The notes under the pieces are model-generated. The model was not told the origin of the DNA. It saw only the letters and a program-made list of their open reading frames with translations, and searched no databases. A stretch of DNA of 64,000 nt, from contig VXMM01000018.1 of the NCBI GenBank assembly GCA_009841105.1, positions 1 through 64,000 on the forward strand, written 5' to 3'. This document shows positions 1,233 through 50,453 of this stretch, piece after piece. A program made the position numbers and the translations under genes. Positions within the stretch are counted from its first letter, which is position 1. Each line of letters opens with the position of its first letter. The stretch is from Acidimicrobiia bacterium (GTDB lineage: Bacteria > Actinomycetota > Acidimicrobiia > Spongiisociales > Spongiisociaceae).

Positions 1233-2471
1233 GTGAGTCGCAAACTCGTGATGAGGGTGTCGAGCCTGGTCGATCGCCACACGTCGCGGCGCGGTTTCCT
1301 GCGATCGTTGGTGATGTCCGCGACAGCCATCGCCTTCGCCCCCGCCTACCTCGTCCGGCCCATCGCAGCGGAGGCCGCCATCATCACCTGCCTGGGGCTG
1401 CGGTGTTCCCACTGGTCGGCGTGCTGCGACGGATGGACGGAGTTCTGCTGCAGGCTGACGGGGGAGAACACATGCCCGCCGGGCACGGTGGTGGGCGGCT
1501 GGTGGAAGGTCAACAATTCTTCGTTCTGCTCCTACGACAAGCCGCAGCCCCGCTACTACATCGACTGCAACGTCGCGTGCGTGACCGCCCGCCGGTGCCG
1601 GCCCGGAGGGCTCTGCCGAAGGTCGGAGACCGCGGCCTGGTGCCGGTGCCCGGACGGCTGTGACACGAGAAAAGTCGACTGTGTCCAGTTCCGGTATGGC
1701 CAGTGCAACCAGCACACCTGCGTCGGCCCGATCCGCTGCCGGGTCGTCACCTGCGTGCCGCCCTGGCAGTGGGATCCCACCTGCCGTCGCTGGCCGGCGC
1801 TGACCAGCGAAGCGACCCGTCACCACGACCGGCCCTGCCTCCACGACTGGTTCAACGACGTGCCCCCCAACGCCTTCTACGCCGGGGCGGTGCGGTGGAT
1901 GAGCGACCGGGGGATCGCCTCCGGTGTGACGGACGACCTGTTCGGGCCGGACGAGCCCATCCGGTGGGAGGACTTCGCGACGTTGCTGTGGTTCTACGCG
2001 ACCGGTCCGACCACCGGGCCTTCGAGCCCGCTCGACCAGGCGTACCCGCGCACGGACTATGAGAAGGCCATGGACTGGATGGCCCTTGAGGAGGTGGTGC
2101 CCGGACCGGCGGCGCAGGACCTCGAACCTGCCAAACACGTCACCCGTGCGGAGGTCATTGCCTTCCTGCATCGACTGGCCGCAGTCACGAACACAGCGTC
2201 CCGAGAGGAACCGACCACCGGAGATCTCTATCCCGAAAGGGAGTTGACCACGGAACGGCCGCCGTTCCCCGACGTAGCGGACGGCGCCTGGTACGGGAAG
2301 GCCGTGGACTGGGCGGCCGCCCAAGGGATCGTCTGGTGGTCGCCGCCGGATCCGTTCCACCCCGACCAAGTCGTCACGAGGTCAGAAGCCGCCGTCTACC
2401 TGCACCGCCTCCACGAGCCCTTGACTCCCACCCCGGCACCCCAGCCGGAACCTTCCCAACCATGGCTCTGA
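1233..2471 (+). CDS. Tat-exported Cys-rich protein: MADH-light-chain-like domain plus three SLH repeats
   Basis: 412 residues from GTG 1233 (ATG 1251 is an alternative). The N-terminus has a twin-arginine motif, SRRGFLR at residues 18-24, then a hydrophobic stretch, so export is expected folded and oxidised. Residues about 50-190 are very rich in cysteine and resemble methylamine dehydrogenase light chain, including CPPGT followed by a tryptophan. By eye, the second tryptophan of the TTQ cofactor is replaced (YGQC where the enzyme has a WC pair), so TTQ formation is doubtful. Three S-layer-homology repeats follow at about residues 207, 270 and 344. The upstream MauE-like gene fits disulfide maturation. 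Enzymatic or purely structural role is undecided. Confidence 0.7.
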   Translation: MSRKLVMRVSSLVDRHTSRRGFLRSLVMSATAIAFAPAYLVRPIAAEAAIITCLGLRCSHWSACCDGWTEFCCRLTGENTCPPGTVVGGWWKVNNSSFCSYDKPQPRYYIDCNVACVTARRCRPGGLCRRSETAAWCRCPDGCDTRKVDCVQFRYGQCNQHTCVGPIRCRVVTCVPPWQWDPTCRRWPALTSEATRHHDRPCLHDWFNDVPPNAFYAGAVRWMSDRGIASGVTDDLFGPDEPIRWEDFATLLWFYATGPTTGPSSPLDQAYPRTDYEKAMDWMALEEVVPGPAAQDLEPAKHVTRAEVIAFLHRLAAVTNTASREEPTTGDLYPERELTTERPPFPDVADGAWYGKAVDWAAAQGIVWWSPPDPFHPDQVVTRSEAAVYLHRLHEPLTPTPAPQPEPSQPWL

Positions 2472-2548
2472 GCACCCCGTCGTACGTGCCGCGGCATGTG
2501 TAACATGGCCCTGACGCGTTCGGCGGCGAGTCGATATGTCGTCAAGAG

Positions 2549-2612
2549 GAAGGCGGCCCGCTGGCCCGGTCGAAGGGCTTTGCCACAGGTGGCAACCAGC
2601 GGAACCGCCTTC
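2549..2612 (+). terminator. Compound hairpin, probable terminator
   Basis: An outer stem GAAGGCGG (2549-2556) pairs with CCGCCTTC (2605-2612), continued by CGCTGG with CCAGCG. Inside it is a perfect TTGCCAC-AG-GTGGCAA hairpin at about 2579-2594. A pyrimidine-rich tract (tctcatcttat) follows. It lies 78 bases after the SLH gene, so termination is the simplest reading. Because there are two nested stems, a structured leader for the gene at 2739 is also possible. Confidence 0.5.
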
Positions 2613-2738
2613 TCTCATCTTATCGCCCTGCTGTAATAGGAAAACCTTGGGTTGGATTAACCACAAGAGTCACCGATGAGCGATACCGCCAGCTCTAGCC
2701 GGCCAGCAGTGGTAGAGGGTCCATCGGGAGGATTGGCT

Positions 2739-3053
2739 GTGAGTGTCGTCAAGATCAACGCGATCACCGTGCCGGATGGAAAGGGTGCGGACCTGGAGGC
2801 GCGGTTCGCGGCGCGGGCTCGTGCGGTGGACGGGGTGGAGGGCTTCGAAGGGTTCGAGTTGCTGAGGCCGGTGGATGGCGAGACCCGCTACTTCGTCTAC
2901 ACGAGGTGGAGGTCGGAGGAGGATTTCCAGCGGTGGGTCAGCAGCCGGGAGTTCCGGCGGGGCCACAAGGCATCGAACGCGGGCTCGGACAGCCGGCCGG
3001 TCGGTGTCACTTCCGAGTTGTTGTCGTTCGACGTGGTCGAGCTCGCTACCTGA
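2739..3053 (+). CDS. ABM-domain haem-degrading monooxygenase, MhuD/IsdG-like
   Basis: 104 residues from GTG 2739, which is preceded by GGGAGGA at ideal spacing and gives the family's usual length of about 105; ATG 2676 would add 21 residues unlike the family. The protein is one ferredoxin-like antibiotic-biosynthesis-monooxygenase domain: SVVKINAITVP at the start, GFEGFELLRP in the middle and RYFVYTRWRSEEDF near residue 65. In mycobacteria, MhuD opens haem to mycobilin and frees iron. The conserved histidine position is plausible in the SREFRRGH segment. It converges with the sterol-reductase gene at 15 bases. Confidence 0.75.
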   Translation: MSVVKINAITVPDGKGADLEARFAARARAVDGVEGFEGFELLRPVDGETRYFVYTRWRSEEDFQRWVSSREFRRGHKASNAGSDSRPVGVTSELLSFDVVELAT

Positions 3054-3068
3054 GGGGCGACGGGTTTC

Positions 3069-4208
3069 TCAGTAGATCCAGGGGTAGATCCGGTACTTCA
3101 CCCGTGCCTTGTATTCCGCCCACTTCTCCGGGCCGTACTTCTCTTCGCAGAACTTGTTGTCGTAGCGTTCACGGGTGGTGAACATGATGACGACGAAGAT
3201 GAAGTAGGTCCATGCCCACAGGTTGGTGAAGTGGCCGAACGCCAGGGCCATCCCCAGCGAGATGAACCCCTCACCCCCGTAGTTCATGTGCCGGGCCAAG
3301 CCCCAGAAACCGCTGACCAGGAGTTTGCGGTCGCCGGCCTCGATGTACTCGGGCTCGATGAGGCCGAGGAACTTGCGGTCGGGCCATCGCTTGAACGTGT
3401 ACTTCTGCATGGCGGCGCCACGGGACATGCTCCACCCGAAGAGGAAGCTCACCGACGCTCCGATCAGCCAGACATACCTGCCCGGTCCCGAGAATCCGGG
3501 GTCCGGGTGAACAGCCATCCCCCACAGCGGAATGGTGAACATCCACCCGTAGATCAGGAGCCCGCCCCAGAACATCTTGAATCCCATCCTCTCATGGATG
3601 AGATCGTAGGTATACAGCTGGACACGCTCGAATACGAAGTAATCCACGATGTACCACGTGAAAAACGCGGTATACAGGACAACACCGGGATTGGAGTTGT
3701 CGCCGAAGCGGTCGTAGTGGTAGGCCACAGCTGACCAGCCGTTGAGCACCAACATCGTCCCGCCCACCACATAGAAGTACATCTTGATGTCGATGCGCTG
3801 GTTGAAGAAGGACAGCTCCTGAGCCCGTCCGATCCACAAGGCCAGTAACGGGTTCTTTTCCTCGCCCGGTGGCTGGCTGTACACCGCGATGATGGCGAGG
3901 ATCAGGGTGACTACCGTTCCGCCGGCCACGGCATAGAGGGTGGACCGGTAGAACCAGTCGCGCGGCATCCCGGTCAGCTCGAAGTACCACAGGATCACCA
4001 CGACTATGAAGACCAAGAGACCGTTCAGCCGGTAGCGCCGAGGTTCGCCGGTCTCCGGATTGACTACGTAGCCGGGGACCCAACGTCCCGGCACCACTAG
4101 CTGCAACACGAAGAACCCGGCGAAGGCCGCCAGCGGGGTCAGGAATCCCCAGATAGCCTCGGTCCCGGAAAGCTCGACGAGGTGGCCGATACCGAGCCAT
4201 TCGAACAT
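3069..4208 (-). CDS. ERG4/ERG24-family sterol reductase-like membrane protein
   Basis: 379 residues and about nine to ten membrane helices. The C-terminal signature of the family is clear: LVSGFWGLARHMNYGGE, then DNKFCEEKYG and YRIYPWIY at the end. Eukaryotic members reduce C14 or C24(28) double bonds of sterols with NADPH. The frame is open to GTG 4256, but those 16 codons are transposon DNA. ATG 4208 abuts the 8-base target duplication, and the ancestral ribosome-binding site (GGGGGAAGGA on the minus strand) now lies beyond the far end of the transposon at about 7031-7040. The gene has therefore lost its own leader and may be silenced or driven from the transposon end. The true substrate is unknown. 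Confidence 0.75.
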   Translation of the reverse strand: MFEWLGIGHLVELSGTEAIWGFLTPLAAFAGFFVLQLVVPGRWVPGYVVNPETGEPRRYRLNGLLVFIVVVILWYFELTGMPRDWFYRSTLYAVAGGTVVTLILAIIAVYSQPPGEEKNPLLALWIGRAQELSFFNQRIDIKMYFYVVGGTMLVLNGWSAVAYHYDRFGDNSNPGVVLYTAFFTWYIVDYFVFERVQLYTYDLIHERMGFKMFWGGLLIYGWMFTIPLWGMAVHPDPGFSGPGRYVWLIGASVSFLFGWSMSRGAAMQKYTFKRWPDRKFLGLIEPEYIEAGDRKLLVSGFWGLARHMNYGGEGFISLGMALAFGHFTNLWAWTYFIFVVIMFTTRERYDNKFCEEKYGPEKWAEYKARVKYRIYPWIY

Positions 4209-17444: not shown

Positions 17445-17552
17445 CTTGCGAGGCGGGAGGACTCCTAGCCGCTCCTCCGGTCAGAGCAGGAAGGCGATCG
17501 CGACTAACGGAGGACTTGCCATGTGTTGCGAAGAAACGGCCGCGAGGCGGGC

Positions 17553-18296
17553 ATGAGGCTTGAGGGCAAAGCGGCGGTCGTCACCGGCGCAGGCCAGGGG
17601 ATCGGGGCGGCCATCGCCCGCCTCTTCGCCGCCGAGGGGGCCAGGCTGGTGCTGGCGGACATGAGAAGCGGTCCCGCGACCGGGGTGGTGGACGAGATCA
17701 CGTCCGGCGGCGGGGAGGCCGTGTTCGTGCAGGCGGATGTCACGTCCGACGCCGACTGCAAGCGGATGATCGACACGGCGATTGAAGGCTACGGCACCCT
17801 GGACATCCTGGTCAACAACGCCGGCATCGCCGGGAAGGGGACGGTGACGGAGGTTACCGAGGAGTTCTGGGACCGGGTGATGGCCGTGAACCTCAAGTCG
17901 ATCTTCCTCGCATCCCGCCACGCCGTTCCGCACATGGAGCGGGCCGGGGGCGGTTCCATCGTCTGCATCGCCTCGGTGGCGGGCATGACGGGGGAGATGG
18001 GCCAGGTGGCCTACAACACTTCTAAGCACGGGGTGATCGGCCTGGTGCGGTGCATGGCCTACGACCACGCCGCGGCGGGCATCCGGGTCAACGCCGTGTG
18101 CCCGGGCGCCATCGACACGCCGCTGCTGAGCCCGCTGACCGAGGAGCGCCGTACCAGGCTGGAGGGCATGCACATGATGCGTAGGCTCGGCCGGCCCGAA
18201 GAGATTGCCCGCGCCGTGCTCTACCTGGCCGGGGATGAGTCCTCGTTCATGACGGGCGCCGCACATGTGGTGGACGGCGGGTACACGGCTTTCTAG
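17553..18296 (+). CDS. Short-chain dehydrogenase/reductase (SDR)
   Basis: 247 residues from ATG 17553 (the open frame extends to 17523 without support). Classical SDR: TGAGQGIG near residue 12, NNAG near 88, Ser in CIASVAG, and YNTSK as the catalytic Tyr/Lys. The C-terminal MTGAAHVVDGGYT block is typical of 3-oxoacyl-ACP reductase-like and sugar/sterol dehydrogenases. The acidic residue after the second strand (LVLADM) suggests NAD(H) preference. Substrate unknown. Confidence 0.83.
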   Translation: MRLEGKAAVVTGAGQGIGAAIARLFAAEGARLVLADMRSGPATGVVDEITSGGGEAVFVQADVTSDADCKRMIDTAIEGYGTLDILVNNAGIAGKGTVTEVTEEFWDRVMAVNLKSIFLASRHAVPHMERAGGGSIVCIASVAGMTGEMGQVAYNTSKHGVIGLVRCMAYDHAAAGIRVNAVCPGAIDTPLLSPLTEERRTRLEGMHMMRRLGRPEEIARAVLYLAGDESSFMTGAAHVVDGGYTAF

Positions 18297-18334
18297 GTGC
18301 TTCGTTCAGCGGACCGGACGGAAGGGTTGAACTT

Positions 18335-18567
18335 GTCACACCCCCACCATATGTTGAAGGTCGCCAAGCACCAATGCCGGCCGTGGCTTCGACCGATCGG
18401 TTCGGCCGGCGGATGGGAACATTCAAGGCTTCGTGGAGCGACCAGCCGATCTCCCGGCAACCGGCCGGTATGGCTGACCACGCTCCGAACCAGGACAGGT
18501 GGTGGTGGGGGAGGGCCCGGCGAGCGGAGCACGCTTGCCGCGATTTTCGCGTTCTTTCGCCCACTCG
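18335..18567 (+). repeat. Dispersed intergenic repeat, copy A
   Basis: Shares ends and core blocks with 31064-31266: GTCACACCC near the start, ACCAATG about 35 bases later, and near the end a GGTGGTGG tract, GGGGGAGGGCCC and CGCGATTTTCGCGTTCTT. The centres differ in length and sequence. No protein is encoded. It fills the gap between an SDR gene and a beta-hydroxyacid dehydrogenase gene. It may be a non-autonomous element or a structured RNA family; see findings. Confidence 0.5.
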
Positions 18568-20518: not shown

Positions 20519-22444
20519 TTGGTCTTGCAACCTGCCGACCTCGCACTCATCACTTCGGTGTCCGACCCGCAGTTTCACCCCGACGGTGAACGGATCGCCT
20601 TCGTCGTAACCTCGACGGATCTCAAAGAGGACCTGTACAGGTCGTCCATATGGCTATGGGACGGGGAGGCTCGGCAGCTGACCTACGGGTCCTCCGACTC
20701 CTCGCCGAGATGGTCGCCCGACGGCGGGACCCTGGCCTTCGTCAGGAAGGGTGGGGAAGAGAAGGACCCGACCCAGCTGGCGATCATGCCCGCCGACGGG
20801 GGGGAAGCCCGGGTGATCACCGAGTTCGAGCTCGGCGCTCGGGCGCCGGCGTGGTCGCCCGACGGCGGCTCGATCCTTGTCGTGGCCACCGAATGGCACG
20901 GCGAGTGGGCCGGACTCGATGAGGACGAGCGGTCACGGAAGCCCCGGCGGATCACCGGTTTCGATGTGCGGGTGGATGACCAGGGTTGGCGCCACGACCG
21001 CCGCACATATGCCTACCTGGTGGACCCTCGCGGCGAGACTCCTCCTCGACGCGTGGGCTGTTCCGACGAGCACGAGTCCGAGCCCGCTTGGTCCCCGGAC
21101 GGCGCCAGGGTGGCCATGGTGACCAGCCGGGACAACCCGAGGTCTCTCGAGCGTGGCGCGGAGGTGATCGAGGTCGAATTGGACGGCGGTCGCGAGACAT
21201 TGCGGGCCCGGCGTTCCGGCTACTTCTCGGTCGACTACGACCCGGCGGGCAATCTGTACGGGATCGGCGACCCATCCCCGGCCTACCCCTACGTCTGTTC
21301 CCTGTGGCGACTCGACGAGGCTCCCACCGACATCACCGGACATCTCGACCGGAGCCTCAACGACCTGCTGACGTCCGGCGCTCTGGAGAAGCCCATCTGG
21401 CTGGAGAGTGGTTTCATGGCCGGGATGTCGGACCGAGGGCGAGCTTCCGTGATCGCTTTCGACCCGGTCGGAGACGTGCGGACGGTGCTGGGCGGCGACA
21501 GGTTCATCACCGGACTCTCGAGGGCGGCATCCGGGAGGTTGGCCTTCACCGCCACCGACCCCACCTGCCCGGGCGAACTCTACGAGTTGACCGCCGACGG
21601 CGAGGAACGGCGCCTGACCGACTTCAACCAGGAGATCCGTGGCTCGGGGGCGCTGGTCCGACCGGAGTCCTTCCAGGTCGAGAGCGCTCCGGGGGTCGAA
21701 GTGGACGCCTGGTTATTCATGCCCGATGGCGACGGTCCGTTCCCGGTGCTACTCAACATCCACGGAGGCCCGGCGTCAGAGTACGGGTTCTATTTCTTCG
21801 ACGAGTTCCAGGTCTATGTCTCGGCCGGCTACGCGGTGGTGGCCTGCAACCCGCGCGGTTCGGAAGGACGCGGTCATGACTGGCTCCGGGCGGTCACGGG
21901 CGACGGCTGGGGCAGGGTGGACGTGGAGGACATCACGGCCGTCGTCGACCATGCCCTGGCCAGTGAGGCCCGGCTCGATCGCAACCGTGTCGGGATCATG
22001 GGGGGCTCATACGGAGGCTTCCTCACGGCGTGGACCATCGCTCGCGACCACCGGTACCGCTCAGCGGTGGTCGAGCGTGCCCTGATCGACTGGGAGTCGT
22101 TCGGCGGCACGTCCGACATCAACCGTGACTTCGCCGGGCTTTACCTGCACCCCGCTACCGCCGAGGATCACGACGCCCTGTGGGAAGCCGGCCCGCTTGC
22201 CACAGCCGGTCGGGTTGAGACTCCCACCCTCATCATCCACTCGGAGGACGACCTGCGTTGTCCGATCGGTCAGGCCGAGCAGTTCTTCACGGCCCTGCTC
22301 CGGAAGGGAGTCGAGGTGGAGATGATCCGCTTCCCCGACGAGGGACACGAGTTGAGCCGCAGCGGAGCACCCCGCCACCGCGTGGAGCGTTTCGAGCACA
22401 TCCTCGCCTGGCACGACCGCCATCTGGGGTTGGGATCCGAGTGA
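20519..22444 (+). CDS. S9 family (prolyl oligopeptidase/acylaminoacyl) peptidase
   Basis: 641 residues from TTG 20519 (TTG 20525 is possible). The N-terminal half is a WD40-like propeller with repeated WSPDG motifs (near residues 66, 115, 190); the C-terminal half is an alpha/beta hydrolase with Ser in GGSYGG, Asp in HSEDDLRCP and His in DEGHELS. It cleaves short peptides or removes acylated N-terminal residues in the cytoplasm; no signal peptide is visible. Its stop overlaps the start of the GrdC-like gene (GTGA), so the two are translated together. Confidence 0.88.
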   Translation: MVLQPADLALITSVSDPQFHPDGERIAFVVTSTDLKEDLYRSSIWLWDGEARQLTYGSSDSSPRWSPDGGTLAFVRKGGEEKDPTQLAIMPADGGEARVITEFELGARAPAWSPDGGSILVVATEWHGEWAGLDEDERSRKPRRITGFDVRVDDQGWRHDRRTYAYLVDPRGETPPRRVGCSDEHESEPAWSPDGARVAMVTSRDNPRSLERGAEVIEVELDGGRETLRARRSGYFSVDYDPAGNLYGIGDPSPAYPYVCSLWRLDEAPTDITGHLDRSLNDLLTSGALEKPIWLESGFMAGMSDRGRASVIAFDPVGDVRTVLGGDRFITGLSRAASGRLAFTATDPTCPGELYELTADGEERRLTDFNQEIRGSGALVRPESFQVESAPGVEVDAWLFMPDGDGPFPVLLNIHGGPASEYGFYFFDEFQVYVSAGYAVVACNPRGSEGRGHDWLRAVTGDGWGRVDVEDITAVVDHALASEARLDRNRVGIMGGSYGGFLTAWTIARDHRYRSAVVERALIDWESFGGTSDINRDFAGLYLHPATAEDHDALWEAGPLATAGRVETPTLIIHSEDDLRCPIGQAEQFFTALLRKGVEVEMIRFPDEGHELSRSGAPRHRVERFEHILAWHDRHLGLGSE

Positions 22445-23889
22445 ACCCGTTGGGCCCGACACCCGCCATCCTCCACGCCTCCTACGTCCTTGCCCATGCT
22501 CCCGATCTGGTCCGGTACGGGTCGAAGCCGGTGCGCGAGATCGGCAGGGACCCGTCGCTGCTGCCCCAGGTGACGGGGTCCCTTCGTCCCTGGGACGAAG
22601 TGGTCGCCTACCCGCCCAACCAGGTGTTCATCGGCAATCTCGTACCGGATGACCTGGCGTCCATCCCTCGTCCCTGGTACGAGAACAGGATCGACCCGGC
22701 AGGTTCTGAAGGCCCGTTCGGCCGCATGGTCACCCAGCCTGCGCTCTACGGGCTCATGAAGCTATGCGATGACTTCGATCTATTGGCCATCGACGGGGAA
22801 CTGGCCGATCAGGCCGGCGCCGACCTGGCGGACTTCGATCATCGGCGAGGTCGCATCACGGGAGTCGATCCGGCCGAGTTGAGGGCCATGGCGGAGGCGA
22901 GCAACGGCCTTGATCTCCACCAGGACGGGCGGCGGGCCGGTTTCATCCGCACCGTTCACGATCAGGACGAGTCGCTGTCCGCCTCGGTGCTGCTCGAGAA
23001 CCTGGTCTGCAAGGCGACAGCCGTCCTGGCCGTCTCCGACCTCCTCAGGCGCGCTCGCCTCGCCGCAGGTGAGATCGACTACCTGCTCAACTGCGGCGAG
23101 GAGGCGGTGGGGGACCGGTACCAGCGGGGCGGGGGCAGCCTGTCGAAAGCGGTCGGCGAGGTGGTCGGTTGCGTGAACGCCACCGGATCGGACGTCAAGG
23201 CGTTCTGCTCGGCGCCGGTGCACGCGCTGATCGCGGCCGGCGCGATGGTGGCGGCGGGTGTCCACAGGTACGTGGTGGTGCTGGGCGGGGGTTCGCAGGC
23301 CAAGCTCGGCATGAAGTTCGGCGCTCACCTGCGCAGCGGGGTGCCGGTCATGGAGGACTGCCTGGCTTCCATGGCCTTCCTGGTCGGTCCCACCGGCGCT
23401 GACGGCGATGGCATGGGGCTGCGGCTCGACTTGGCCGGGAAGCATCCGATCGGGGCCGGCTCCTCCCCGAAGGCGGTTTACGAGGCGCTGGTGGTGGAGC
23501 CGCTGGTGAGGGCTGGGCTCCGCATGACCGACATCGACAGGTATGCGGTGGAGATGCACAATCCGGAGATCACCGAACCCGGCGGGAGCGGAGATGTGCC
23601 GAAAACGAACTACCGGACTCTGGCTGCGATGGCGGTGCTACGGCGCGAGATCGAGAGAGGTGACATGGACCGCTTCGTGGCCGAACGGGGCATGCCCGGG
23701 TTCGCTCCGACCCAGGGGCACATTCCGGCCGGGGTTCCCTACCTCGGACACGCCTTGGAAGCGATGCGACACGGCAGCCTCGACCGGGCCATGATCGTCG
23801 CCAAGGGGAGCCTGTTCCTGGGAAGGATGACGCAGTTGGTCGACGGGGTTTCCTTCGTCGTCGAGCGGCCGGGAAGCCGCCCCTCCTAG
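22441..23889 (+). CDS. grdC: Glycine/sarcosine/betaine reductase component C beta subunit homologue (GrdC-like)
   Basis: 482 residues from GTG 22441, 4 bases inside the previous gene. The FabH-like thiolase fold ends with blocks diagnostic for GrdC: VEMHNPEITEPGGSGDVPK, MPGFAPTQGHIPAGVP and AKGSLFLGRMTQLVDG. In clostridia, component C takes the carboxymethyl-selenoether from the selenoprotein and releases acetyl phosphate. Conserved Cys residues lie in NCGEEAVGD and AFCSAPVHAL. The alpha subunit GrdD and component B are not in the window; grdA follows 109 bases downstream, which supports a joint function. Whether the full reaction occurs in this organism is open. Confidence 0.85.
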   Translation: MNPLGPTPAILHASYVLAHAPDLVRYGSKPVREIGRDPSLLPQVTGSLRPWDEVVAYPPNQVFIGNLVPDDLASIPRPWYENRIDPAGSEGPFGRMVTQPALYGLMKLCDDFDLLAIDGELADQAGADLADFDHRRGRITGVDPAELRAMAEASNGLDLHQDGRRAGFIRTVHDQDESLSASVLLENLVCKATAVLAVSDLLRRARLAAGEIDYLLNCGEEAVGDRYQRGGGSLSKAVGEVVGCVNATGSDVKAFCSAPVHALIAAGAMVAAGVHRYVVVLGGGSQAKLGMKFGAHLRSGVPVMEDCLASMAFLVGPTGADGDGMGLRLDLAGKHPIGAGSSPKAVYEALVVEPLVRAGLRMTDIDRYAVEMHNPEITEPGGSGDVPKTNYRTLAAMAVLRREIERGDMDRFVAERGMPGFAPTQGHIPAGVPYLGHALEAMRHGSLDRAMIVAKGSLFLGRMTQLVDGVSFVVERPGSRPS

Positions 23890-23998
23890 AGGTGGATGGG
23901 TAGGGCGATAGACTCTCGAGGACCCGCCGCGATCACGTCGTCAGCGAGTGCGTGACCCCCCGGTGGTATGACCGTAGGAATAGACGAGAGGAGCGCGC

Positions 23999-24451
23999 AT
24001 GGATCTGAAGGGCAGGAGGGTGGTGGCCATCGGTGAGCGGGAAGGCGTCACCGGGCCCAGCCTCAAGCTCCTGGCCGAGTCGGCCGGGGCCGACGTGGTG
24101 TTCAGCGTCACTCAGTGCTTCGTCTGAACGGCTGGGGGCGCGATGGACCTGGAGGACCAGGCGAACGTAAATCGCCTGGCCGAGACCTCCGGCACCGACG
24201 ACATGGTCGTGCTGCTGGGGCAACCGGACGCCAACAGCGCCGGTCTCTTCGCCGAGACGGTGACCCGAGGCGATCCGACCTGGGCGGGTCCATTGGCCGG
24301 AGTCCCGTTGGGACTTCCCGTATATCACGTACTGGAGCCGGAGATAAAGGAGCAGATGGACGGCGATCTGTACGACGAGCACGTAGGTCTGATGGAGCTT
24401 TCAGCCGATGTGGACGAGATCATCAAGTGGGTAGCCGTCTGCAGGGATTGA
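23999..24451 (+). CDS. grdA: Selenoprotein A of glycine/sarcosine/betaine reductase (GrdA), UGA decoded as Sec
   Basis: One continuous frame of 150 residues if TGA at 24125-24127 is read as selenocysteine (residue 43). Upstream: VVAIGEREGVTGP and QCFV; directly after the TGA: TAGGAMDLEDQ; then GDPTWAGPLAGVPLGLPVYHV and EPEIKEQM. This matches GrdA throughout, including the CxxU redox motif (C40, U43) in CFVUTAxGAMDLE. The ATG has AGAGGAG upstream at good spacing. GrdA carries the carboxymethyl group as a selenoether between components B and C and is re-reduced by thioredoxin. A standard gene caller would split it or start at ATG 24143. It requires SelA, SelB, SelD and tRNA-Sec elsewhere in the genome. 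Confidence 0.92.
24148..24161 (+). promoter_or_regulatory. Candidate bacterial SECIS hairpin of grdA
   Basis: CCTGG-AGGA-CCAGG is a perfect 5-bp stem with a 4-base loop containing G residues. It begins 20 bases after the UGA, inside the coding region where bacterial SECIS elements sit. A flanking extension could not be confirmed by eye. Confidence 0.5.
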
Positions 24452-24642: not shown

Positions 24643-25002
24643 ATGACTACTAAGACACGATATTACAACTCTACCGGACGAGACTACCTGGCCAAGGCCC
24701 AGCGCTACCTGGCGGAGGACGACCTGCTGCAAGCATCCGAGAAGGGCTGGGGCGCCGCCGCCCAGATGGTCAAGTGCGTCGCCGATGCCCGTGGATGGTC
24801 CCACGAAGGGCACCGCCAGTTGTGGAGCGCGGTCACCCGTCTGGTCGAGGAGACCGGAGATCAGGAAATGCAGACCGCCTTCGGGCTGGCAGGAGCGCTC
24901 CACACCAACTTCTACGAAGGCTGGTTACCCCGCGAGGTCGTCGAGAACTACCTCACTCAGGTCGAGGAACTGGTGTCGAAGTTGGAGGCCCTCCCCTCTT
25001 AG
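24643..25002 (+). CDS. PaREP1/HEPN-like small helical protein
   Basis: 119 residues. YLAKAQRYLAEDDLLQASEKGWGAAAQMVKCVADARGW resembles the PaREP1 and HEPN groups, in which a helical bundle senses or binds RNA/nucleotides; the AxEKxWGAA block is the conserved centre. A canonical HEPN RxxxxH is not obvious: H occurs in WSHEGHRQLW without the right arginine spacing. No nucleotidyltransferase partner is adjacent, so a toxin-antitoxin role is not supported. Function unknown. Confidence 0.6.
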   Translation: MTTKTRYYNSTGRDYLAKAQRYLAEDDLLQASEKGWGAAAQMVKCVADARGWSHEGHRQLWSAVTRLVEETGDQEMQTAFGLAGALHTNFYEGWLPREVVENYLTQVEELVSKLEALPS

Positions 25003-25210: not shown

Positions 25211-26614
25211 CTATTGACGCCACGGGGTTAGGAGACCGTGGAGGTCCGCCCGGTCTATCAGGTCCTCGGCGCGCGCCTGCGCCTCCCTCATTACCTTTTC
25301 CTCGTCGACCATCGTGCAGCGGCCGTTCTCCAGGGCCAGGTTGCCGTCGATGATGGAGTGGACCACGTCCGAACCCCGGGCGCAGTAGGTGAGGGCGGAG
25401 ACGGTCCGGTGCCAGGGAGTGAGGTGGGGGCTCTTCATGTTCACGACGATGATGTCGGCCAGCCTTCCGGGGGCTATCACACCCGCATCGATGTTGGCGT
25501 AGCGGGCGCCCTCCCTCGTCGCCATTTCCAGCGCCTCCTCGCCGTTGCTGATGGTCGGCTCCAGGGTGTGGACCCGCTGGAGGAGGATGGCCTGTTTCAT
25601 GACCTCGAACATGTCCTGGCGGTGGTTGCAGCAGGGTCCGTCGGTTCCGAGGGCGATCGGCGCACCGGAATCACGCAGCTCCCGGAGCCGCATCACACCC
25701 AGCGCGATGTACTGGTGGGAGATCGGGCAGTAGGCGATACCCGTATCGGTTTCCCCCACATGGTCGATCTCGGCGTCGTCGAGGTAGATCCCGTGTGCGA
25801 TGGTCGCCTCCGGCCCGAGCAGTCCCTCCTGGTACAGCCACTCGACCGGTCGGATCCCGTACTCCTCCAGGTAGGTGGGCGGGTCCTCTAGGCGTTCCGA
25901 GCAATGGGTATGCCAGCCGACGCCGGCCTCCCGAGCCAGAGCCACGCTCCGCCGCACTAGGTCCTGGTCGTTGTAGATGATGTTGAGGGGCGCCGGCCAG
26001 ACCTCCACCCGCCCACCGGCCGGATACCGCTCCATCGCGGTGGCGGTGATCTCGATCTCCTCGTCGTTGGAGTAGGAGAACAGCTCGCCGGCCAGGTTGA
26101 ATCGTCGAGCTATGTCGGTGGCCTCGCCGGTGATCCCGCGGGCCACCGCACCTCGCAACCCCACCTCGTGTATGGCGCCGGCCACCGCCAGGGTGCTGTC
26201 GAGATCGGACGGCGCGTAGTGGTTGTCGACCACCGTGGTGGTGCCGGCCTTGAGGGCTTCCACCGCTCCCAGCTTGGCGCCGATCCGGCCCTCCTCCAGG
26301 TTGATGGAGATCGAGAACGGCCACATGAAGTCGGTCAGCCAGGTCCACAGCGGCATCCCCTCGCCCAGCCCGCGGGCGAGACCCTGGAACAGGTGGTTGT
26401 GAGTGTCGATCAAACCCGGCATGACGGCATGCCCGGAGCAATCGATGGTGCGTCCTGCCCGGTAGCCGGCCAGATCATCATCTGTGCCGACGGCCACGAT
26501 CCGGTTGCCCGACACCGCCACCGCTCCCGGCTCGATCACCCGGCGCTCGTCATCGACGGTCACGACCGACCCTCCGGTCAGAAGGAGGTCGCACTCTCGG
26601 CTTGTGTCGTTCAT
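25211..26614 (-). CDS. Metal-dependent amidohydrolase (aminohydrolase, SsnA/MtaD/AtzA-like)
   Basis: 467 residues, ATG 26614 with GGGGAGG upstream. PGLIDTHNHLFQGLARG near residue 70 gives the HxH metal ligands; further ligands are the His in GVGWHTHCSE, the His in ATIAHGIYLDD and the Asp in LGTDGPCCNHRQD. This group deaminates or dechlorinates nitrogen rings (guanine, S-adenosylhomocysteine, triazines). It is complete. It heads a run of three amidohydrolase genes on the minus strand, although the two others belong to a different family. Substrate not assignable. Confidence 0.85.
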   Translation of the reverse strand: MNDTSRECDLLLTGGSVVTVDDERRVIEPGAVAVSGNRIVAVGTDDDLAGYRAGRTIDCSGHAVMPGLIDTHNHLFQGLARGLGEGMPLWTWLTDFMWPFSISINLEEGRIGAKLGAVEALKAGTTTVVDNHYAPSDLDSTLAVAGAIHEVGLRGAVARGITGEATDIARRFNLAGELFSYSNDEEIEITATAMERYPAGGRVEVWPAPLNIIYNDQDLVRRSVALAREAGVGWHTHCSERLEDPPTYLEEYGIRPVEWLYQEGLLGPEATIAHGIYLDDAEIDHVGETDTGIAYCPISHQYIALGVMRLRELRDSGAPIALGTDGPCCNHRQDMFEVMKQAILLQRVHTLEPTISNGEEALEMATREGARYANIDAGVIAPGRLADIIVVNMKSPHLTPWHRTVSALTYCARGSDVVHSIIDGNLALENGRCTMVDEEKVMREAQARAEDLIDRADLHGLLTPWRQ

Positions 26615-26630
26615 CTGACGAAACCTCCCC

Positions 26631-27542
26631 TTATTCGGCTGAGCGGTCCGGGATCTTCAGGAGTCGGGAGGCGGTGCCGCCCATGATGGCTTCCATCTCC
26701 TCCTCCGCCAGATCGGGACCGCCGACCTCGGCGGCCACCCGGTTGACGGCGCGGAAGATGTCGGATGCCACCCCGCCGGGACCTGACTTCTGCTTGTCGT
26801 TGTTGTCGGACCCGTAGAGCGCCCGGTCCAGCGCGCCGAGGCCCCTGAGTTTGTTCAGTACCCGGTACAGATCGCGGGGGTCTCCTCCCGCGTAGTAGGC
26901 CAGGTCGGCGTAGAAGTTTGGGTGCCGGGCCACCACCGCGATGCCCTCGTCCACATAGGGAAAGGCCAGGTAGACGACCACCTTGAGTTCCCGGTAGCGG
27001 ATCCCGAGCTCGTCGAGGAGGACCGGACGGGCGTGGGGCATCGGAGCGTTGATGATCGGGGTGAAGCCGGTGTGGGTGTGGATCGGAAGGTCTAGCTCAA
27101 TGCACTTCTCGTACACCGGCGCCAGTCGGGGGTCGGCGGGGTCGTGATGGTGGTAGGTGGGCAGCAGCTTCATCATGCGGAACCCATACTCGGTGACGCA
27201 CCGCTCGATCTCCTCGGTGGCCTCCCGCACGTCGCGGAGCGGGTCCACGCACGCCACGCCGTACAGGCGTCCCGGATGGGCGGCGCACTGGGCGGCGGTG
27301 TAGTCGTTGGGCACGTGCACCTCGTGCTCGTTCGGAAAGCTCGGATGGAAGGTGGTACGGCGCAGGTCCGATCCGTGCGCCAGCCCAACATCGATTCCGG
27401 CCCGGTCCAGAAGGTCCACCAGAGCCGCCCCGTCGGTCCACTGGTACTCCGCCCCGTAGGGCCTGTACAGTTCCTCCATCCACCAGACGGGAGCGTGGCT
27501 GGGTGTCTCGGTGAGGTACAGCAGCACGTCGACCGTGGGCAT
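26631..27542 (-). CDS. Amidohydrolase-2 family paralogue lacking the N-terminal HxH metal motif
   Basis: 303 residues from ATG 27542, 4 bases after the upstream paralogue. It aligns with that paralogue nearly end to end (HAPVWWMEELYRPYG, DLRRTTFHPSFPNEHEVHVPNDYTA, NKLRGLGALDRALYGSDNNDK). Where the paralogue has the metal ligands DCHLHLTE, this protein has VDVLLYLTE, so the HxH pair is gone. Later His and Asp residues (HTHTG, GSDNNDK) remain. It is either a catalytically changed or dead copy, or works as a heteromer with its neighbour. The long frame upstream of ATG 27542 is a shadow. Confidence 0.8.
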   Translation of the reverse strand: MPTVDVLLYLTETPSHAPVWWMEELYRPYGAEYQWTDGAALVDLLDRAGIDVGLAHGSDLRRTTFHPSFPNEHEVHVPNDYTAAQCAAHPGRLYGVACVDPLRDVREATEEIERCVTEYGFRMMKLLPTYHHHDPADPRLAPVYEKCIELDLPIHTHTGFTPIINAPMPHARPVLLDELGIRYRELKVVVYLAFPYVDEGIAVVARHPNFYADLAYYAGGDPRDLYRVLNKLRGLGALDRALYGSDNNDKQKSGPGGVASDIFRAVNRVAAEVGGPDLAEEEMEAIMGGTASRLLKIPDRSAE

Positions 27543-27546
27543 GGGC

Positions 27547-28446
27547 TCAGTCCAGCTTGTACAGGCGGCGGGCGTTTCCTCCCACGATGCCCTCGATGTT
27601 CGCGGCGGAGAAGGGTTCCCGGCCGGTGCGCTCGGCCACCTCGTTGAGTGCGCCCAGAAGGTGGGTCCCGATCTGCTGGCCGCCGCCGGTCCGGTCCTTG
27701 TCGTTGTTGTCAGAGCCGTACAGGACCCGGTCGAGCGCGCCCAGACCCCGGAGTTTGTCGAGGGCATCAAAGAGTGGCCCCGGCCCGGCGCCCATGAAGT
27801 AGGCGATGTCGGCGTGGAAGTTGGGGTGGCGGGCCACCACCGCGATGCCCTCGTCCACGTAGGGGAAGTTGACAACGACCAGCACGCGGAGGTCGCGGTA
27901 CCGGATGCCGATCGCGTCCAGCCGTTCTGGGTTTCCGTACCTGAGCGCAGCGGTGATGGTCGGCGAGTAACCGGTGTTCACGTGGGCGACGATGTCGAGT
28001 TCCAGGCAGCTCTCCAGCATGGGCGCCACAGCCGGATCGTCGATGTAGTAGTTCTGGTAGGTGGGTAGGAACTTCGAGGACTTGAAACCGAGTTCCTCCG
28101 CGCAGCGCCGTTGCTCGACTACCCCGGCCCGCACGTCCCGCAGCGGATCGATGTTGGCCACGCCGATCAGCCGGTCGGGGAAGAGGGCCACCTGTTCTGC
28201 CGTGTAGTCGTTGGGTACGTACAGGTTGCGCTGGTCGGGGAAGTCGGGATGGTAGGTGGTACGGCGTATGTCGGAGCCCTGCACCATCCCCAGATCGACC
28301 CCGGCTCGGTCGAGGATGCCGACGATCGCCGCCCCGTCCGTCCAGATGTACCCACCGCCGTACGGCCGGTAGAGCTCCTCCATCCACCAGATCGGCGCCT
28401 GCTCCTCGGACTCGGTCAGATGGAGGTGGCAGTCCACCGTCACCAT
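27547..28446 (-). CDS. Amidohydrolase-2 (TIM-barrel metal-dependent hydrolase)
   Basis: 299 residues from ATG 28446, preceded by GGGAGG. VDCHLHLTESEEQAPIWWMEELYRPYG gives the HxH metal motif directly at the N-terminus; HVNTGYSP and LYGSDNNDKDR supply further ligands. The amidohydrolase-2 family includes decarboxylases of aromatic acids (ACMSD, gamma-resorcylate decarboxylase) and lactone hydrolases such as 2-pyrone-4,6-dicarboxylate hydrolase. It pairs with a downstream degenerate paralogue. The substrate is unknown. Confidence 0.83.
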   Translation of the reverse strand: MVTVDCHLHLTESEEQAPIWWMEELYRPYGGGYIWTDGAAIVGILDRAGVDLGMVQGSDIRRTTYHPDFPDQRNLYVPNDYTAEQVALFPDRLIGVANIDPLRDVRAGVVEQRRCAEELGFKSSKFLPTYQNYYIDDPAVAPMLESCLELDIVAHVNTGYSPTITAALRYGNPERLDAIGIRYRDLRVLVVVNFPYVDEGIAVVARHPNFHADIAYFMGAGPGPLFDALDKLRGLGALDRVLYGSDNNDKDRTGGGQQIGTHLLGALNEVAERTGREPFSAANIEGIVGGNARRLYKLD

Positions 28447-28551
28447 GAGATCGTACCTCCCCACCAGGCTGTCGCAGATGTGGCCGCGCCGTAGCGTATC
28501 AAGCTGCCCTATAGATGCGACAATTGCGGGCGCGGATCAGGACCGAGGTCG

Positions 28552-49571: not shown

Positions 49572-50453
49572 TTACCCGAGGCCGAACATCAACTCGTTGA
49601 GGCGGACCGAGGCGGTGCGGAAGGTCTTGGGATCGAGACGGACCGACCCGATCTGTAGTCCGGCCATGCCCTGGTTCCCGGAGGTGATGACCCGCAGTAC
49701 GTCGTCGTACTCGAGCATCCCCAGGCACAAGCACCGCCCTTGCCGGTCGTGGACCCCGACGATCATCCGGTGGAGGCGGACCAGGTCGAAGCCGGCGGGG
49801 AGGCTGGGCGCGAACACGGTGGGCAACACGCGCCAGCGCTGGAGGGGTGCCGGGAAGGCTGCGGCGAACCGAGCGGCGCGCATGTCCATACGCTCCTCGG
49901 GGCTCATCGGGAGGCTGCCCCGGTTGGCAGGTACGGTGATCACGTTGGTAGAAAGGAACCGCCGCAGGAGGCCCACCAGGGGTTCCAACTCACCACCCCG
50001 CTGGACGGCCCATACAGTGTCGGGACGAACCAACTCCGCCTTGTGATACTTGAGGCGCTGGCCCACCACCCCGGAGACGGTCCCGCTGGTGTCGATGACG
50101 ATCAGGTCCGCCTCCGCCCGGGCGGTTTCCACCAGCGAAGCCACCCCGGCCACCTGCTGGAGGATGAACCGATCCGGCCTGATGCTTCCCACGAACCGCA
50201 GATCGTCGGCTTGGGCCAAGTGGTCAGCGTCGGCGGGAGAGCGGAGCCACTTCAGGCCGACGCATGTGGGCGGGCCCACGGTGGTGCAAGCCAGGTCGCT
50301 GTCGATGTAGGCGACGGTCCTTCCCGCCTGGAGGGCGTTGTCGACCAGCGTGCGAGCCAGGGTCGTCTTCCCCGAGTCGGGCGCCCCGATGATCATCACC
50401 ACCCCCTCGGCCGAGGACAGCAGTTCGGTGTCGCCGAGCGCCGGATCACCCAT
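49572..50453 (-). CDS. Clp1/Grc3-like P-loop kinase or NTPase
   Basis: 293 residues. Walker A is GAPDSGKTT near residue 23, followed by YIDSDLACTTVGPPTCVGL and LIVIDTSGTVSGVVGQRLK, the pattern of the Clp1/NOL9/Grc3 polynucleotide 5'-kinase P-loop domain (PF16575 type). Eukaryotic members phosphorylate RNA 5' ends. The C-terminal part (PAPLQRWRVLPTVFAPSLP, then GRCLCLGMLEYDDVLRV) corresponds to the appended beta-barrel of such kinases. Bacterial homologues are little studied. It could be an RNA or DNA 5'-kinase or a sensor NTPase. Confidence 0.7.
   Translation of the reverse strand: MGDPALGDTELLSSAEGVVMIIGAPDSGKTTLARTLVDNALQAGRTVAYIDSDLACTTVGPPTCVGLKWLRSPADADHLAQADDLRFVGSIRPDRFILQQVAGVASLVETARAEADLIVIDTSGTVSGVVGQRLKYHKAELVRPDTVWAVQRGGELEPLVGLLRRFLSTNVITVPANRGSLPMSPEERMDMRAARFAAAFPAPLQRWRVLPTVFAPSLPAGFDLVRLHRMIVGVHDRQGRCLCLGMLEYDDVLRVITSGNQGMAGLQIGSVRLDPKTFRTASVRLNELMFGLG

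Follow-up and report, generated by a model that had tools for sequence, protein, structure and literature searches.

The GrdA–GrdC core of a selenium-dependent reductase lacking GrdD in an Acidimicrobiia bacterium

The window analysed here, a stretch of 64,000 nucleotides (G000:C68:1-64000), belongs to a draft genome of an Acidimicrobiia bacterium (3.05 Mb, 69 contigs, 97.5% complete). We take its genus to be sponge-associated, going by the record names of relatives (e.g. RHO1_bin_64, SB0664_bin_25). The window carries two genes of the glycine/sarcosine/betaine reductase (Grd) family. grdC (22441..23889, +) encodes the component C beta subunit, a KAS III/thiolase-like acyl carrier, and was assigned by the NF040746 profile (587.6 bits, cut-off 450), by alignment, by a residue signature and by an AlphaFold2 model. 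grdA (23999..24451, +) encodes selenoprotein A, 150 amino acids read through one TGA codon, and was assigned by translation, alignment and the profiles NF040748 (199.2 bits, cut-off 130) and PF04723 (190.6 bits, straight across the TGA). These scores bear out an earlier, sequence-only reading of this DNA, which had named GrdC and selenoprotein GrdA in an actinobacterium; its coordinates and the gap of 109 bases that it had placed between grdC and grdA were correct.

The in-frame TGA of grdA (24125..24127, +) almost certainly specifies selenocysteine (Sec) 43 of the CFVU motif, in the context TQCFV-U-TAGGAMDLEDQ. GrdA was found in 25 of the 395 genomes of the class, and this codon is common to all 25 genes, each of which has exactly one in-frame TGA. 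Likewise, U occupies the CFVU place in 86/86 full-length copies of GrdA taken from the retrieved loci, some of which stem from the same genomes. Protein identity to close relatives across the TGA is 94 to 98%. A candidate bacterial selenocysteine insertion sequence (SECIS) hairpin with a stem of 5 bp (CCUGG/CCAGG) and the loop AGGA begins 20 bases past the TGA (24148..24161, +). Among 15 distinct relatives 98.7% of cells are paired and the stem shows no compensatory double changes, so that the hairpin is supported by conservation and not by covariation. The position of the TGA, its context and the hairpin, all pointed out in the sequence-only reading, were thus confirmed.

SelA and SelB are encoded by adjoining genes on contig C13, and tRNA-Sec was found on contig C14 by both Rfam (77 bits versus 47) and ARAGORN. 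SelD is of the Sec type and itself has an in-frame TGA (GGGUASK). As the genome holds SelA, SelB, tRNA-Sec and a Sec-type SelD, the grdA TGA is almost certainly read as selenocysteine. The search for selA, selB, selC and selD proposed earlier thus returned all four, and neither of the two findings that had been named as speaking against the selenoprotein, missing Sec machinery or replacement of the TGA by other codons, was made.

The remaining subunits, which the sequence-only reading had missed near the pair, were sought in the rest of the genome. Component B, consisting of GrdE and GrdB, is encoded on contig C51 (L006:14405-17114). GrdB contains Sec347 and scored 417 bits with TIGR01918 (cut-off 65.45); GrdE matched the GrdG family with 238.6 bits, below the cut-off of 780. 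In the genus mate G172 a single contig carries both grd loci, separated by about 52 kb. The genome therefore has the features of the broad glycine/sarcosine/betaine reductase family (selenoprotein A with CFVU, component B, GrdC and SelA/SelB/SelC/SelD) except for the component C alpha subunit, GrdD. The earlier suggestion that the other subunits are located elsewhere held for GrdB and GrdE but not for GrdD, which none of the GrdA-bearing class genomes tested has.

What is new is this absence of GrdD, the subunit credited with forming acetyl phosphate, here and in relatives. With the GrdD profile NF040747 (cut-off 350) the only match in the genome was PlsX, encoded beside rnc, with 23.8 bits, and no match above the cut-off was obtained in 24 GrdA-bearing relatives of the class. 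The proposed search for grdD was thus negative in a genome in which grdB turned up on C51. We also examined 40 GrdA-bearing genomes reached via named loci (Desulfofundulus, Dethiobacter, Binatia, Chloroflexota, Acidobacteriota, Acidimicrobiia and others). Only the four controls, in which grdD adjoins grdC (L138, L148, L149 and L180), scored for GrdD, with 458 to 559 bits; in none of the remaining 36 did a match reach the cut-off. Some genomes occur in both sets, which leaves about 59 distinct genomes without GrdD. The pattern with which GrdA was sought was biased towards [VA]T[QE]CFVU, so that classical clostridial systems are under-sampled. No conserved replacement accompanies grdC, and a replacement gene near it was rejected: across distant loci only grdA, grdB, grdE, thioredoxin and trxB (thioredoxin reductase) recur. 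A literature search, whose coverage excluded most subscription papers, returned no description of GrdD-less systems. Among cultured organisms, Desulfofundulus thermobenzoicus DSM 14055 (L139) is a practical test organism: its GrdD-less genes are compactly clustered as grdE-grdB-grdC-trx-grdA-GntR-trxB, a transporter gene lies upstream of them, and downstream there is an acetate-CoA ligase-like gene.

The absence of GrdD goes along with fixed differences in GrdC. Six residues, K29, R32, R226, Y227, K253 and K292, are present in 52/52 distinct GrdD-less GrdC proteins, while none of eight GrdD-linked GrdC proteins has this signature. Four of the eight were found after the signature had been defined. 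They come from a separate collection of plasmid records (Photobacterium, Acetoanaerobium and Enterococcus copies), and in all four grdD adjoins grdC and the signature is absent. Site 253 is K versus R, and the net gain in basic residues is therefore four, not five. K29/K292 versus T29/N292 separates the two types of GrdC and offers a simple sequence test for the GrdD-less type. In the GrdC tree the first four GrdD-linked proteins form one clade (100/99), and all eight fall on one side of a branch with a support of 1.0. Cys256 and His427 are invariant and are proposed as active-site residues from their position in the KAS III-like sequence. The AlphaFold2 model of GrdC (predicted local distance difference test, pLDDT, 90.9) shows a thiolase/KAS III fold; its structural matches (VIA Z about 22, root-mean-square deviation 3.6-5, about 280 residues aligned) include acyl-CoA enzymes, some of them CoA-bound. 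No viral contigs with grdC relatives were found.

On balance we favour the reading that the A/C core encoded in the window is the shared part of a GrdD-less selenium-dependent reductase of the Grd family, in which GrdC most likely hands the acetyl group to coenzyme A (CoA). Component B, encoded elsewhere in the genome, would work in trans. By analogy with the family mechanism, GrdE and GrdB would bind a substrate of the type X-CH2-COO-; the selenol of GrdB would expel X, a carboxymethyl selenoether would form and the carboxymethyl group would move to Sec43 of GrdA, which is presumably re-reduced by thioredoxin. The resulting acetyl group would then sit in thioester linkage on GrdC, at Cys256. 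In classical Grd complexes it is next released by GrdD as acetyl phosphate; work on Eubacterium acidaminophilum is reported to have assigned this final step to GrdD. In the GrdD-less system GrdC would most likely pass the acetyl group to CoA, giving acetyl-CoA. Because GrdD is missing and the acetyl thioester would be held by a KAS III-like protein, CoA is the simplest acceptor, and an anionic partner such as CoA would fit the added fixed basic residues of the GrdD-less GrdC.

Several points weigh against this reading. The acetyl acceptor is inferred, the genome is an incomplete draft, and R226 and Y227 lie in a low-confidence loop of the GrdC model. The GrdD-linked GrdC proteins form a single clade, and the signature could be an inherited marking rather than a mark of function; as it stems from one evolutionary split, descent and function are inseparable by sequence alone. 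Furthermore, the genome itself has acetate kinase, so acetyl phosphate would not be useless there. Grd systems have been described as a soluble route of substrate-level phosphorylation via the product acetyl phosphate (PMC13188914). However, 10 of the 25 GrdA-bearing class genomes, among them the single-contig genome G022, contain neither acetate kinase nor phosphotransacetylase, and acetyl phosphate could scarcely be put to use in them by that route.

These observations also bear on the possible alternatives. The system might be a conventional reductase of the glycine type, with the housekeeping PlsX or some unrecognised protein standing in for GrdD, acetyl phosphate as the product and acetate kinase yielding ATP from it. 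The genome has no GrdD-like protein other than PlsX, which is a phosphate acyltransferase of the GrdD superfamily, and acetate kinase occurs there as well as in most of the genus. Nevertheless, we consider this explanation unlikely: plsX lies beside rnc, its usual housekeeping place, a second match of the PlsX level also occurs in the genome of L148, which has a true GrdD, no second conserved gene accompanies grdC, GrdC differs at the six fixed sites and ten GrdA-bearing relatives have neither acetate kinase nor phosphotransacetylase. Hydrolysis of acetyl-GrdC to acetate, with the system scavenging or removing amines or detoxifying its substrate and no energy conserved in the acetyl bond, would agree with the lack of GrdD and with the acetate-CoA ligase-like gene downstream of the Desulfofundulus cluster. 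It would waste the thioester, though, and the fixed basic residues suggest an anionic partner rather than water, which makes this route improbable as well. Finally, the splitting of the components over at least two loci in a draft genome could mean that the locus is degenerating or has been misread, the TGA being a true stop and the downstream open reading frame (ORF) not made as part of GrdA. This is very improbable given the complete Sec machinery, the conservation of the TGA and of the protein downstream of it in all class GrdA genes, the identity to close relatives stated above, and the presence in the same genome of two further genes with a TGA, those for GrdB and SelD, which belong to known selenoprotein families.

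The substrate of component B is a separate matter and is compatible with acetyl transfer to CoA. The best NCBIfam models for this component were GrdF and GrdG, by a small margin, but GrdB stayed far below the cut-offs of the sarcosine-type (NF040794, GrdF, 417.5 bits versus 800), betaine-type (NF040795, GrdH, 370.4 bits versus 775) and glycine-type (TIGR01917, 393.7 bits versus 602.2) models. The GrdB motif published in PMC9751293 is absent, as is the published GrdF motif, whereas the GrdB motif is present in the controls from Acetoanaerobium, Photobacterium and L153. Two kinds of component B occur in the class. Most families have a single cluster, grdE-grdB-grdC-grdA; the second kind, found in family f1, lies behind a BKACE (DUF849) gene, apart from grdC-grdA. 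Two genomes, G270 and G367, carry both kinds, and only the second was found in the genus of the window. GrdB proteins of the second kind form a long-branched clade (support 100/100) and are the sole holders of the motif UGTGTRSG, and the order BKACE-GrdE-GrdB is kept in family f1. A UxxG in place of UxxC in GrdB was dropped as a mark of lineage, since a GrdD-linked protein of D. piger also has UGTG.

Judged by the published GrdB motif, the substrate is probably not glycine. The sequence-only reading had offered as its second option that the pair does a different job; for A and C this is not needed, and it is for the substrate of component B that the suggestion probably applies. We consider it probable that in this genus component B takes neither glycine nor sarcosine nor betaine but a different compound, whose formation or use would also involve the BKACE-type enzyme and the amidohydrolase encoded in the cluster. 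This is in line with the unmatched GrdB and GrdF motifs, the distance from all three cut-offs, the long GrdB branch and the gene order conserved in family f1. On the other hand, the motifs and cut-offs derive from other phyla and might miss an enzyme that acts on glycine, and the BKACE protein does not provide a named substrate either. The two proposals taken together, a widespread GrdD-less Grd branch that makes acetyl-CoA via GrdC and, in this genus, an A/C core serving a component B with a BKACE-linked substrate new to the family, are put forward tentatively.

The surroundings of GrdE and GrdB on C51 (L006:11167-17114) keep their order within the genus: ABM-domain protein, TrzN-like amidohydrolase, BKACE, GrdE and GrdB. 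This conserved order may define the substrate of component B. The TrzN-like amidohydrolase has a relative in the window (25211-26614, −). Amidohydro_2 paralogues are found beside both grd loci (window 26631-27875, −, and 27547-28464, −; L006:1034-1906, 1910-3358 and 17453-18355), which suggests that this hydrolase family has expanded and may be connected with the metabolism in question. A route from carnitine to betaine by BKACE and carnitine dehydrogenase was dropped; the gene concerned scored 174 bits as a generic 3-hydroxyacyl-CoA dehydrogenase versus 116 as carnitine 3-dehydrogenase (cut-off 592), and a dehydrogenase-like gene was also not found near GrdB in relatives. A partial GrdB match on contig C38 (L003:1072-1989, −) was rejected as a second component B. 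It represents a separate PrdB-like selenoprotein of the PrdB/GrdB superfamily with about 300 amino acids and the motif VPVUPVCHQS, which scored 152.7 bits with PrdB (cut-off 300) and has no obvious PrdA. Similar genes occur in relatives, and a similar TGA-containing match was found in G137, a member of the same genus without GrdA.

Compared with the Stickland glycine reductase of the Acetoanaerobium type (GrdE/GrdB, GrdA, GrdC/GrdD), the system shares GrdA with CFVU, a Sec-containing GrdB, GrdE, and GrdC with the proposed active-site Cys and His. It differs in that GrdD is absent, six GrdC sites are changed, component B is placed elsewhere, and GrdB has UGTGTRSG, in which the last Cys is replaced by Ser, and not the glycine-type motif. 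A separate component B on one A/C core is also found in sarcosine (GrdG/GrdF) and betaine (GrdI/GrdH) reductases, but the low GrdF and GrdG scores and the missing GrdF motif distinguish the system from sarcosine reductase. The fluoroacetate reductase farACEB of Cloacibacillus (PMC10838667) resembles it in having a specialised component B, encoded apart, that feeds grdA and grdC; here, however, the match to FarE reached only 127.4 bits (cut-off 675), and inspection of the listed ORFs beside GrdE/GrdB revealed no recognisable radical SAM or antiporter gene. It is established that in this family more than one component B can draw on a single A/C core (PMC10838667). L144 (Blastocatellia) offers a natural example with two: tandem GrdB/GrdE pairs lie downstream of one grdC-grdA, without GrdD. 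As in serpentinite-hosted glycine reductases (PMC9751293), the family is found here outside the classical Stickland fermenters. In that study acetyl phosphate and acetate kinase are taken as the route and GrdB and GrdE serve to define presence; neither GrdD nor GrdC is named in the main text.

A large group of GrdD-less Grd systems, marked by fixed GrdC residues of its own, would make the energy-conserving step optional, and many annotated glycine reductases would do something else. Purified GrdC alone would offer an approach to the long-standing problem of how GrdA gives up the acetyl group. For the relatives of sponge symbionts, the finding points to a new selenoenzyme that would cleave a C-X bond.

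An S9 peptidase gene (20519..22444, +; PF00326) overlaps the start of grdC, a GTG codon, by 4 bases at its stop. The sequence-only reading had set the pair beside this peptidase; the two genes do adjoin here, but the peptidase gene stands beside grdC in just one of eight other genus members. It was therefore rejected as a partner, is probably an incidental neighbour and probably lies outside the system. No Rfam matches were obtained within the 64-kb window. A protein of the PaREP1 family (PF05942), which takes its name from archaea, is encoded near grdA (24643-24999, +) and is also found near grdB or grdA in the relatives L091, L110 and L111. At 49575-50453 (−) this bacterial sequence contains a match of 102.6 bits to CLP1_P, the P-loop domain of a eukaryotic/archaeal RNA end-processing factor.

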